A stretch of DNA of 64,000 nt, from contig LDXJ01000063.1 of NCBI GenBank assembly GCA_001029295.1, positions 434,001-498,000 of the forward strand, written 5' to 3'. A program made the position numbers and the translations under genes. The notes beneath the pieces were generated by a model. That model saw only the letters and a list, made by a program, of their open reading frames with translations. It was not told where the DNA came from and made no database searches. This stretch comes from Peptococcaceae bacterium CEB3 (GTDB lineage Bacteria; Bacillota; Desulfitobacteriia; Desulfitobacteriales; Desulfitobacteriaceae). Below are positions 5,428 through 18,183 of this stretch, piece after piece (within the stretch, counting starts at the first letter, position 1; the number at the start of each line of letters is the position of its first letter).

Positions 5428-6186
5428 ATGTATGACCTGACGCAGAAACTGAGTCATCTGACCCCGCCTTGGCCGACGTATGAACCTCTGCAAATCAAGT
5501 TCTTCAAACGCCTCAGTTCCAATGGCGCCAACGGACAAGTGATCACGACCTCTAACCATGTGGGCACTCATTTGGACGGATCGCTCCATTTCTGTACGCA
5601 TGGCCGGGATATTGCGGCCATTCCCCTGGAGGAATTAATTGGGGAAGCCGTGGTCGTGGACTTGAGTGACATTGCCGAGGATTACGGAATTTACACATCC
5701 CAAGACATTATGAAGAGAGTGGAGGTGAAAAAAGGAGATATCCTCCTCATTAACACAGGCTATCACAAGTATGGCTGGGACCAGCCCGAGGCTGACGAAG
5801 TACGTTATATGGTGAAGCATCCCGGCCCCACGAAGGAATTTTCGGCCTGGTGCCGGCTAATGGAATTCAAATGGATCGGAGTGGACTGCGGTTCCGCGGA
5901 TCATCCGATGAATACGAAAATCCGAGAATGGGCACCGCGCCAGGCTGCGGAATGTGAAGCTTACTTTCAGCAGAAATACGGCAAGTCTCTGGATGACATT
6001 TTCCCGGCGCAGGATTATCAGCTTATGCACGTCGATCTCTTCCCATACAACATCGTCCATGCCGAGAATTTAGGAGGAGAAATCGATAAGGTGTTAAACA
6101 AACGATTGATCGCGGGTTGCTACCCGTGGCGTTTTGAAGGCGGAGAGTCTTCCATCTGTCGGATCGTCGCTTATGACGAAAAATAA
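5428..6186 (+). CDS. Cyclase family metal-dependent hydrolase
   Basis: 252 residues of the cyclase/kynurenine formamidase superfamily. The metal-binding signature appears as SNHVGTHLDGSLHF near residues 38-51, close to the usual HxGTHxDxPxH with Ser in place of Pro, and a second His-containing segment MHVDLFPYNIVHAENLGG occurs near the C terminus. Family members hydrolyse cyclic or formyl amides using Mn or Zn. Its place between the AllG-like and carbamate kinase genes suggests an amide-hydrolysing step in ureide or oxamate breakdown, which is inference. The annotated ATG has no good ribosome site; an AAAGGAG at 5385 sits 6 bases before an in-frame ATC at 5398 that would add ten residues. Confidence 0.8.
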   Translation: MYDLTQKLSHLTPPWPTYEPLQIKFFKRLSSNGANGQVITTSNHVGTHLDGSLHFCTHGRDIAAIPLEELIGEAVVVDLSDIAEDYGIYTSQDIMKRVEVKKGDILLINTGYHKYGWDQPEADEVRYMVKHPGPTKEFSAWCRLMEFKWIGVDCGSADHPMNTKIREWAPRQAAECEAYFQQKYGKSLDDIFPAQDYQLMHVDLFPYNIVHAENLGGEIDKVLNKRLIAGCYPWRFEGGESSICRIVAYDEK

Positions 6187-15607: not shown

Positions 15608-15643
15608 GAATAGAAGTCAGAGGCCGGAAGTCAGAGGTCGGAA
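15608..15643. repeat. Short dispersed repeat GAAGTCAGAGGCCG between tRNA genes
   Basis: Two adjacent copies of GAAGTCAGAGGYCGG lie between tRNA-Pro and tRNA-Arg. The reverse complement family (CCGGCCTCTGAC, CTCTGACTTCT) reappears at 57385-57575 after the penicillin-binding protein gene. It looks like a genome-wide low-complexity repeat family. Confidence 0.55.
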
Positions 15644-15807: not shown

Positions 15808-15884
15808 GGTGGATGTGGTGAAGCGGTTAACACACCGGATTGTGGCTCCGGCATTCGAGGGTTCAATCCCCTTCATCCACCCCA
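15808..15884 (+). tRNA. tRNA-His (GUG), carrying the left end of an insertion
   Basis: Acceptor GTGGATG (15809-15815) pairs with CATCCAC (15874-15880), and an extra G at 15808 pairs with C73, as expected for tRNA-His. The loop TTGTGGC gives anticodon GUG. CCA is encoded. The last nine bases and the following terminator are duplicated at 17229-17278, marking the far end of a 1.35-kb insertion. The gene itself remains intact. Confidence 0.97.
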
Positions 15885-15924
15885 ATACGTAAGAGAGCGT
15901 CAGGAGTAGTTCCTGGCGCTTTTT
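15876..15924. repeat. Left 49-bp direct repeat (attL-like) at the tRNA-His 3' end, with terminator
   Basis: Starts in the tRNA 3' end (TCCACCCCAATACGTA) and runs through the stem-loop GCGTCAGGA/TCCTGGCGC with a T5 tail, which is the tRNA operon terminator (15896-15924). The copy at 17229-17278 differs by one substitution (AAG to AGG) and one inserted G. Repeats at a tRNA 3' end are typical attachment sites. Confidence 0.85.
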
Positions 15925-16038
15925 GTTTACCGTAATTTGGGCGGAAATGGATGGAGCCCGGTCTAGTAACATCTAGTGAGTGCTATTTAGCAGAACTCTT
16001 ATCCAGAAAAATATTTCAGATGAATCCCAAAAAAGGTC

Positions 16039-16074
16039 TTGACTTAACACATAGGTTAAGGTTAATGTATAGGT
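16039..16074 (+). promoter_or_regulatory. Promoter with overlapping direct repeats before the DUF6932/XRE pair
   Basis: TTGACT (16039-16044) and TAATGT (16063-16068) with an 18-base spacer form a candidate promoter. A direct repeat TAACACATAGGT (16045) and TAATGTATAGGT (16063), period 18 bp, overlaps it and could be the operator of the downstream XRE-type protein, as in autoregulated toxin-antitoxin operons. Confidence 0.5.
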
Positions 16075-16119
16075 ATAAATAACCCTGGATTCTGCATATA
16101 ATAGGAGTGAGTAGAAGCA

Positions 16120-16698
16120 ATGTTAAATCTGGATTTTAACGAGCATGGCCTCCTACCTGCAGGTGACTACCAAATGAATTTTGGCATGTTAAGGACGTCA
16201 ATATTAGTACAGGGTAACAGGGGCTGTGATGAGACATGGGATTCGAACTGGAGACTAAAACTAGTGGATAATTTAGAAATACTTGTAAAGCAACTTTGGG
16301 AGAGGGGTCTTACTGAAATCTTCATTGACGGATCATTTGCTACCAGTAAGCCACATCCCAATGACATTGATGGCTATTTTGTCTGTGATCTACGGAGAGT
16401 AGTCAGTGGAGATTTAGAACGTGAGCTTAACGCGATTAACACAGATAAAATCTGGACATGGGATCCTAAAAGTTTACGCTCATGCAAAGGCTCTACTAAA
16501 CGGCAACTGCCAATGTGGCATAAATATAGGGTGGAGCTTTACCCGGAATTTGGTCAGGGATTTGGTGTTTCTGATGAATATGGGCAACCGTTGCTCTTCC
16601 CTGCCGCGTTTCGGAAAGAACGATATACTAGAATTCCAAAAGGCATCATTAAAATAATGAAATTGATTTCTGTGAAGAATGTTAAGGAAGGAGAATGA
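16120..16698 (+). CDS. DUF6932-type nucleotidyltransferase-like protein
   Basis: 192 residues. IFIDGSFATSKPHPNDIDGYF (about residues 67-87) shows the minimal nucleotidyltransferase pattern: a Gly-Ser turn followed by Asp-x-Asp, the metal-binding acids of the polymerase-beta fold. I recognise the N-terminal LNEHGLLPAGDY-like region as DUF6932. No substrate is known. The gene is markedly more AT-rich than the flanking chromosome, sits alone with an XRE gene between 49-bp repeats, and its stop overlaps the next start (ATGA). The pairing suggests a toxin-antitoxin or small defence module, which is inference. Confidence 0.65.
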   Translation: MLNLDFNEHGLLPAGDYQMNFGMLRTSILVQGNRGCDETWDSNWRLKLVDNLEILVKQLWERGLTEIFIDGSFATSKPHPNDIDGYFVCDLRRVVSGDLERELNAINTDKIWTWDPKSLRSCKGSTKRQLPMWHKYRVELYPEFGQGFGVSDEYGQPLLFPAAFRKERYTRIPKGIIKIMKLISVKNVKEGE

Positions 16699-17141
16699 TT
16701 GTGATTAGAAGCGAAACTGAATACAAGGAAATGGTTAAAAGGCTCCAAGATGATCGTCAGTTTATTAAGATGCAGAAAGAGTCTTTAGTGGAGATGGGGT
16801 TGACCGACGAGGAAATACAAAGAGCAATGGCTCCGGCACTGTCTTTTTACGAACAATTAAAAGACGAAGTAGACTATTATGAAAGGATTAAGAGGGGTGA
16901 ATTTAGAGTTCTCTTGAACTTGGAAGATCTTGGGAGGACGTTGATCGCACTTAGGATTGCTCTTGGAATTTCTCAAAGAGAGCTATCCGATAGGCTAAAT
17001 GTTTCAGAGGCTCAGGTGTCTAAGGACGAACGCAATGAATACCATGGAGTTACAGTCGAGAAGGTTCAGAGAATATTAAATGTCCTACAGGTCACTTTGA
17101 AAACTGAAGTAACTGACTTTCCTGAGACACTAGCATCATAG
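16695..17141 (+). CDS. XRE-type helix-turn-helix protein, partner of the DUF6932 gene
   Basis: 148 residues, start ATG overlapping the previous stop by 4 bp, with AAGGAGA just upstream. A helical N-terminal half (LQDDRQFIKMQKESLVEMGL, with a run of charged helices to residue 70) precedes an XRE/Cro HTH at about residues 88-140 (RIALGISQRELSDRLNVSEA). This resembles antitoxins and phage-type repressors that autoregulate a toxin operon; the direct repeats at 16045-16074 could be its operator. AT-rich like its partner and inside the same insertion. Confidence 0.75.
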   Translation: MIVIRSETEYKEMVKRLQDDRQFIKMQKESLVEMGLTDEEIQRAMAPALSFYEQLKDEVDYYERIKRGEFRVLLNLEDLGRTLIALRIALGISQRELSDRLNVSEAQVSKDERNEYHGVTVEKVQRILNVLQVTLKTEVTDFPETLAS

Positions 17142-17228
17142 GTTCAACGATTTTACCAATCCAGTGAGTGACGCAATCCGATGGATAATATTTGCGTGTC
17201 GAGCGTTTATTTTAGTCGCTTTCAGAAT

Positions 17229-17278
17229 TCCACCCCAATACGTAGGAGAGCGTCAGGAGTAGGTTCCTGGCGCTTTTT
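17229..17278. repeat. Right direct repeat (attR-like) with duplicated terminator
   Basis: Second copy of the tRNA-His end plus terminator: TCCACCCCAATACGTA followed by GCGTCAGGA/TCCTGGCGC and T6. It now lies just after the insert and 14 bp from the 3' end of dapB on the other strand. Only nine bases of the tRNA are present, so it is not a second tRNA gene. Confidence 0.85.
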
Positions 17279-17292
17279 TAGATATTTTTTCG

Positions 17293-18183
17293 TCACATAT
17301 CTACTTCCTCCGCCACGGGGAAGGGAAAGTTCAGTTCGCCGCCGCCGAACCTTTGGTTGCGGATATTGGCTTCGCGCTCCAAATAACGCAGGATAACGTT
17401 TTTTAGATCCAGGACTTCGTCCATCTCATAGTAGCCTGTTTTTCCGTAAATGAAGCGGACGGCTTTGAGAGCGCCGAGAGCGAAGGCGGTGCGGGCAAAG
17501 GCTTCGTGGGTAATCTCAATCTTGTCAAATTCACCCGCCAGCACGACACTGTGCCGGCCGATGATCCCTCCGGCTCTGATCGCGTGAATGGGTACTTGCC
17601 GGTGATCCAGTTCATGGAGGTTGACGCCGGTGCCGGAACGACCCTTGAGGACCTCATTGGCAATTTTGATCGCGGTGCCGGAGGGGGCGTCTTTTTTTTG
17701 CTTAAAATGTGATTCGACGATCGTACAATCATAACTATCCAAGATACTGGCGGTCAGGTTTGTCAAGACCATCAGTACGTTGACCCCGAGTGTAATATTG
17801 GGGGCGGAGATGATCCCAGTCCGGTATTTCCGGGTAATGTACATGAGTTTGCGCTGCTGCAGTTCGCTGAATCCGGTTGTCCCGATGACCAAGGGAATTC
17901 GCAGCCGACCTAAAATTTCAGCATGATCTAAGGTTGATTCAGGGTTCGTGAAGTCAATGGCGACGTCTGGGCATGAACTTTCTAACTTTTCGGCCAAGTC
18001 AAGGCTGCTTTCCATTATAATTCCAGTGTCATTCCCGTTTAAAATGCTGCCTAAGTCTCTACCTGGCTTGTCACTGTAGGGACTGCAAACTGCCATGGTA
18101 AGTGTCAGATCTTCTTGCTGCAAAAGGACTCGGGCAATTTCTTTGCCGGTTCTGCCGAGGCCGATTAAACATACCTTGATCAT
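17293..18183 (-). CDS. dapB: 4-hydroxy-tetrahydrodipicolinate reductase
   Basis: 296 residues, about 25 longer than usual because of a C-terminal extension after residue 265. DapB reduces hydroxytetrahydrodipicolinate with NAD(P)H in lysine and diaminopimelate synthesis. IKVCLIGLGRTGKEIAR is the nucleotide-binding Rossmann start, VIGTTGFSE and ISAPNITLGVNVL follow, and the active-site signature reads VESHFKQKKDAPSGTAIKIA (about residues 155-175): the catalytic His and Lys and the PSGTA loop are kept but the second His of the usual HH pair is Phe. It stands alone, convergent with the tRNA operon. Confidence 0.85.
   Translation of the reverse strand: MIKVCLIGLGRTGKEIARVLLQQEDLTLTMAVCSPYSDKPGRDLGSILNGNDTGIIMESSLDLAEKLESSCPDVAIDFTNPESTLDHAEILGRLRIPLVIGTTGFSELQQRKLMYITRKYRTGIISAPNITLGVNVLMVLTNLTASILDSYDCTIVESHFKQKKDAPSGTAIKIANEVLKGRSGTGVNLHELDHRQVPIHAIRAGGIIGRHSVVLAGEFDKIEITHEAFARTAFALGALKAVRFIYGKTGYYEMDEVLDLKNVILRYLEREANIRNQRFGGGELNFPFPVAEEVDM

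Follow-up and report, generated by a model that had tools for sequence, protein, structure and literature searches.

A very small integrase-less element at a tRNA-His gene of Peptococcaceae bacterium CEB3 probably retains a toxin-antitoxin-like DUF6932/XRE gene pair

Organization of the tRNA-His site

The window analysed here is a 64,000-nucleotide stretch of the genome of Peptococcaceae bacterium CEB3, in which ARAGORN places tRNA-Pro, tRNA-Arg and tRNA-His genes in this order. A 14-bp tandem repeat (GAAGTCAGAGGCCG/GAAGTCAGAGGTCG) occupies 15613-15640 in the interval between tRNA-Pro and tRNA-Arg. All features of the tRNA-His site and its insert lie on the forward strand. The tRNA-His (GTG) gene itself, which served as integration target, spans 15809-15884 and is followed by a terminator hairpin with T-run at 15895-15924. 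Its last nine nucleotides together with this terminator constitute a left, attL-like direct repeat (15876-15924), which recurs as a right, attR-like copy at 17229-17278 containing the displaced terminator of tRNA-His. As the preliminary description had stated, the repeats measure 49-50 bp; the two copies differ by a single substitution and a 1-nt gap. With only 9 nt of the tRNA, the right repeat is short on the tRNA side in comparison with a classical att site.

Enclosed by the repeats is a 1.35-kb unit consisting of two genes, with 195 nt upstream of the first and 87 nt downstream of the second. The spacer between the left repeat and the promoter (15925-16043) has no match in 60 relatives and contains no remains of a larger element, while a short spacer (17142-17228) separates the second gene from the right repeat. 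The insert is AT-rich, as previously noted: the GC content falls from about 0.52-0.55 (0.52 for the window) to 0.40. It occurs as a single copy in the host genome. Inspection of open reading frames and Pfam matches revealed neither integrase nor transposase genes between the repeats, and the unit is thus integrase-less, as had been proposed; with no transposase and no terminal inverted repeats, it likewise does not resemble a transposon or IS. The early objection that the repeat might simply be a common terminator does not hold, because the tRNA-His 3' end plus terminator has only one further copy in the whole host genome, namely the right repeat.

The DUF6932 and XRE proteins

The first gene (16120-16698) encodes a DUF6932 protein of 192 aa, a predicted nucleotidyltransferase and putative toxin that matches PF22014 with E=5e-29. 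The second (16695-17141) encodes an XRE-family protein of 148 aa with an HTH_3 match, which is a putative antitoxin and autorepressor. These profile matches bear out the family assignments made at first sight, and both open reading frames are present as described. Their reported overlap amounts to 4 nt and applies only if translation of the second gene begins at 16695; a GTG start at 16701 is likelier because its spacing to GGAG is better and the N-termini of homologs match, and in this case the genes are 2 nt apart.

In all 18 DUF6932 homologs aligned, G71, S72, D82, D84 and E139 are invariant and form a nucleotidyltransferase signature (GS...DID...E), in agreement with the pattern hG[GS]...D-x-[DE] plus a third carboxylate (E139) that characterizes nucleotidyltransferases of the Pol-beta type. 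A sequence search for homologs of solved structure yielded none. Structure predictions were made, as the preliminary description had suggested. The AlphaFold model of the DUF6932 protein (mean pLDDT 78.5, low confidence at residues 116-132) retrieved nucleotidyltransferases, CdnC and MNT as top Foldseek matches, all of them weak (best E 0.03). The XRE model combines two long N-terminal helices with a C-terminal, HipB-like HTH domain.

Several features of the pair would fit a toxin-antitoxin system. The XRE gene follows the DUF6932 gene in every locus with a close relative, covering Firmicutes, Balneolota, Planctomycetota and Bdellovibrionota, so that the two-gene operon is conserved in unrelated contexts; a weak DUF6932 match (L058) is devoid of an XRE gene. 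Amino-acid changes are far rarer than silent ones, with pN at 0.13-0.14 and pS at about 0.8, a value at which silent sites are saturated. Moreover, decay falls on the putative toxin gene and not on the putative antitoxin gene: at five loci (L055, L056, L065, L066 and L067) the DUF6932 gene is shortened next to an intact XRE gene, including three (L056, L065 and L066) that have lost the catalytic region, while the reverse was found at none.

The promoter region adds a further such feature. A -35-like TTGACT (16039-16044), conserved in Desulfocucumis (L047) and Desulfotomaculum sp. (L051), adjoins the palindrome TTAACACATAGGTTAA at 16044-16059, and a half-conserved copy, TTAATGTATAGGTATA, follows at 16062-16077. 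These two putative operators are the direct repeats with 18-bp spacing that had been reported to cover the promoter. Most homologs are preceded by a corresponding TTAAC-N6-GTTAA palindrome, frequently as two copies spaced by 17-18 bp, although it is absent or weak at L045, L052 and L053, and such conserved, operator-like palindromes at the promoter are what would be expected of an autoregulated toxin-antitoxin operon. Judged from sequence, the nucleotidyltransferase motif, the conserved operator and the one-sided decay of DUF6932 together favour the earlier suggestion of a toxin-antitoxin-like pair.

Relation to known systems

The pair shares individual traits with several described systems, yet coincides with none of them. 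In HEPN-MNT systems (HepT-MntA), the nucleotidyltransferase is the antitoxin, and the partners found in MenAT and AbiE systems are of a type different from an XRE protein with a helical N-terminus. The DUF6932 protein has a weak fold resemblance to MNT, but a HEPN partner is missing here and its place is taken by a protein matching HTH_3. Similarly, the C-terminal HTH and the palindromic putative operators upstream of the operon are reminiscent of HipB/HigA-type XRE antitoxins, whereas the N-terminal two-helix part sets the protein apart and neither a HipA nor a HigB partner is present. Toxin-antitoxin systems of the MenT/AbiEii type (PMC10435456, PMC11541572) also join a nucleotidyltransferase-fold protein to a small partner; in contrast, the protein described here matches only PF22014, with no AbiEii/DUF1814 match, and is accompanied by the XRE protein with its helical N-terminus. 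A full-text search for DUF6932 in a collection of open-access papers returned none.

Alternatively, the two genes could form an anti-phage defence system instead of an addiction module. The DUF6932 protein partially matches M63A of the PADLOC candidate PDC-M63AB (E=1e-11, residues 11-95), and one relative of the pair is located on a phage-like contig. On the other hand, the XRE protein has no PDC-M63B match, PDC-M63AB itself was without protective effect when assayed in E. coli NILS69 (PMC12409345), and the neighbouring genes inspected are not known defence genes, with the exception of one Uma2 protein. A defensive role is hence regarded as rather improbable.

Empty site and distribution of the pair

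The 1.35-kb unit is a real insertion, because the same spot is empty in a sister genome. In this member of the same genus (G001), a search for an unoccupied site recovered a single copy of the tRNA-His/terminator sequence within intact synteny. On the left, the alignment of G001 with the window (92%) continues to where the left repeat ends; on the right, it resumes at 17297. The right repeat of the window aligns with the very same single copy. The two repeat copies, with their two differences, resemble each other more closely than either resembles the G001 site. The finding of a clean empty site runs counter to the alternative that the pair is an ordinary chromosomal feature of this lineage.

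A full-length DUF6932 gene was detected in only two of the 101 genomes searched, those of the host (G000) and of Candidatus Dichloromethanomonas elyunquensis (G057), which belongs to another family, and profile searching across 83 genomes from the class gave the same result. A chromosomal operon common to all relatives is thereby ruled out. No match to DUF6932 was obtained in a phage collection, and plasmids yielded one good match, on a 551-kb Mesobacillus plasmid.

Parallel insertions at tRNA genes

The search for the pair at other tRNA-His genes was likewise successful. In G057 (contig matching LNDB01000001.1), the pair resides at the same tRNA-His, and its proteins are the closest relatives of both host proteins, with identities of 80% (DUF6932) and 75% (XRE). 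For comparison, the neighbouring IclR ortholog is 64.6% identical between the two genomes. Because the pair is more conserved than this neighbour and only 2 of the 83 class genomes possess the full-length gene, it is likely that the pair reached one site horizontally. The right-hand repeat of G057 takes in the final 54 nt of the tRNA together with two terminators, and its perfectly matching blocks measure 102 and 104 bp. The segment in addition carries a tyrosine-integrase gene that is truncated (Phage_integrase, E=3e-5) and divergent from DUF6932. An IS-like remnant was also noticed by eye in this segment.

In Desulfocucumis palustris (L047), the pair is part of a 2.5-kb integrase-less segment extending from an intact tRNA-Ser to a 60/61-bp copy of its 3' end, where the tRNA blocks match while the two terminators differ. 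Such a pattern would be expected of an element that brings its own att copy. Moreover, tRNA-His is used for integration within the order, since two relatives harbour integrase genes directly downstream of it: in G010 (L064), a tyrosine integrase gene follows tRNA-His (5706-5781), and in G044 (L107) an integrase fragment lies at +73 to +264 of tRNA-His, both pointing back at the tRNA.

These observations bear on the idea that homologous recombination between the tRNA-His regions of related bacteria delivered the pair, with the repeats as a by-product instead of att sites. This reading draws on the fact that the repeats do not stop at the tRNA but include the terminator, and a second terminator in the case of G057, which exceeds what an integrase core would need; the kept tRNA block with differing terminators in Desulfocucumis and the integrases adjacent to tRNA-His in G010 and G044 nevertheless speak against it and make it very doubtful.

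Around most other copies of the pair, no flanking repeats were found within 2.5 kb. A further arrangement was seen in a member of the Bdellovibrionaceae (L052, 3524-5971), where tRNA-Met, a gene for a 396-aa protein, DUF6932 and XRE follow in order. The 396-aa protein has no Pfam match but shows tyrosine-recombinase-like C-terminal residues by eye, and the locus may represent a form of the element that has an integrase.

Origin of the element and the source of its recombinase

The preliminary description considered the unit a minimal, satellite-like mobile module with a recombinase acting in trans; it would then be excised and reinserted at tRNA-His by an enzyme whose gene lies outside the unit. 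It is consistent with such a mode of life that exactly two genes lie between the repeats, that the two repeats are more alike than either is to the G001 site, and that other integrase-less segments, the selenium cassettes treated below, are found at tRNA-His. Furthermore, the host does encode tyrosine recombinases, two of which (82026-82508 on contig C52, L130; 37718-38200 on contig C46, L131) are small and 74-76% identical to the integrase fragment of G057. The genomic surroundings of these enzymes nonetheless offer little in favour of this proposal: among ten host tyrosine-recombinase loci scanned for tRNA genes, two are near tRNA-Thr and none is near tRNA-His, and no tRNA was present within the 14-kb stretches around the L130 and L131 recombinases. 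Together with the single copy in the genome and the integrase fragment retained beside the G057 pair, this renders such a satellite-like mode of life unlikely. A trans-acting recombinase is possible, but deletions within a larger ancestral element account for the anatomy at least equally well, because none of the ten loci links an integrase to tRNA-His and G057 keeps its integrase fragment. An integrative and mobilizable element or a phage satellite with an integrase of its own does not apply, as none is encoded.

Integrase-less elements flanked by att repeats are in fact a described class, the CIMEs (PMC5704250), and in Dehalococcoides 15 ssrA islands have been reported to lack an integration module (PMC3146451). 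The type of element is therefore less unusual than had been supposed for a small, cargo-only unit. The tRNA-His unit resembles the CIMEs, including the Dehalococcoides ssrA islands (PMC3146451, PMC5704250), in that its repeats include the 3' end of the target gene, as do those at tRNA or tmRNA genes, in that an empty site exists (G001), and in that it contains only cargo, with neither integrase nor other integration or transfer genes. Unlike the cited examples, it measures a mere 1.35 kb with two genes, its repeat continues through the terminator, and it is not arranged in tandem with an intact island.

Taken together, we consider it reasonably probable that the insert is an integrase-less, cis-mobilizable-type element located at the 3' end of tRNA-His, with a toxin-antitoxin-like module of nucleotidyltransferase and XRE protein as the cargo that is left. 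Points against this reading are the short tRNA part of the right repeat, the weak fold matches, the lack of flanking repeats around most other copies of the pair and a left spacer free of larger-element remains. An ancestral integrative element specific for tRNA-His, equipped with a tRNA 3' end and terminator of its own, would have recombined into the tRNA-His gene, leaving the tRNA intact and giving rise to the observed flanking repeats of 49/50 bp, and the integrase part would subsequently have been lost or may never have belonged to this unit. As its motif and fold suggest, the DUF6932 protein is probably a toxin that nucleotidylates cellular RNA or protein, while the XRE protein probably acts as repressor of the operon, binding this toxin as well as the tandem operators of the form TTAAC-N6-GTTAA. 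The pair would then be retained by addiction, and this resistance to loss would account for its persistence as the final cargo between the att-like repeats.

Other small cassettes at tRNA genes

Two further kinds of small insert were observed at tRNA genes of relatives. The first is an integrase-less selenium cassette of 3.4-3.7 kb between copies of the tRNA-His 3' end in three genomes of one genus, G038, G042 and G055 (L060, 2501-5484; L061, 2025-5008; L062, 2684-5670), which encodes a class V aminotransferase, a YedE-like transporter and a Se/S carrier; it was not seen at the tRNA-His of G040 and G045 of the same genus. The second comprises hairpin modules of 100-160 bp downstream of tRNA-His, -Ser, -Leu, -Gly and -Pro genes in many relatives of the same order (L141-L152, L059, L060, L062, L068-L070, L077, L085, L088 and L024). 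Each consists of an inverted copy of the T-arm of its own tRNA, a conserved core GGGCGGAAAAAGAAAATGCGACCTATGGAAGCATTTTCCCGCCC-CGGCGTGATAGC and, last, the 3' end of the tRNA copied in direct orientation. In G016 and G057 the modules occur in tandem. The inverted arm matches its own tRNA at a mean of 11.8 of 14 positions, as opposed to 7.6 for other isotypes. The modules have no match in Rfam and are absent from the genome of the window and from G001. That tRNA 3' ends in this order form a docking platform for tiny recombinase-less cassettes, with DUF6932/XRE, selenium cassettes and hairpins sharing a machinery supplied in trans, appears unlikely.

Concluding remarks

The tRNA-His insert of Peptococcaceae bacterium CEB3 represents a very small natural element at a tRNA site, reduced to one toxin-antitoxin-like operon, and its analysis defines DUF6932/XRE as a probable new family of nucleotidyltransferase toxin-antitoxin systems. 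With an empty site and two parallel loci at hand, two ideas become directly testable: that modules of this kind are what ultimately persists when mobile elements decay, or that they move by themselves and rely on a helper.
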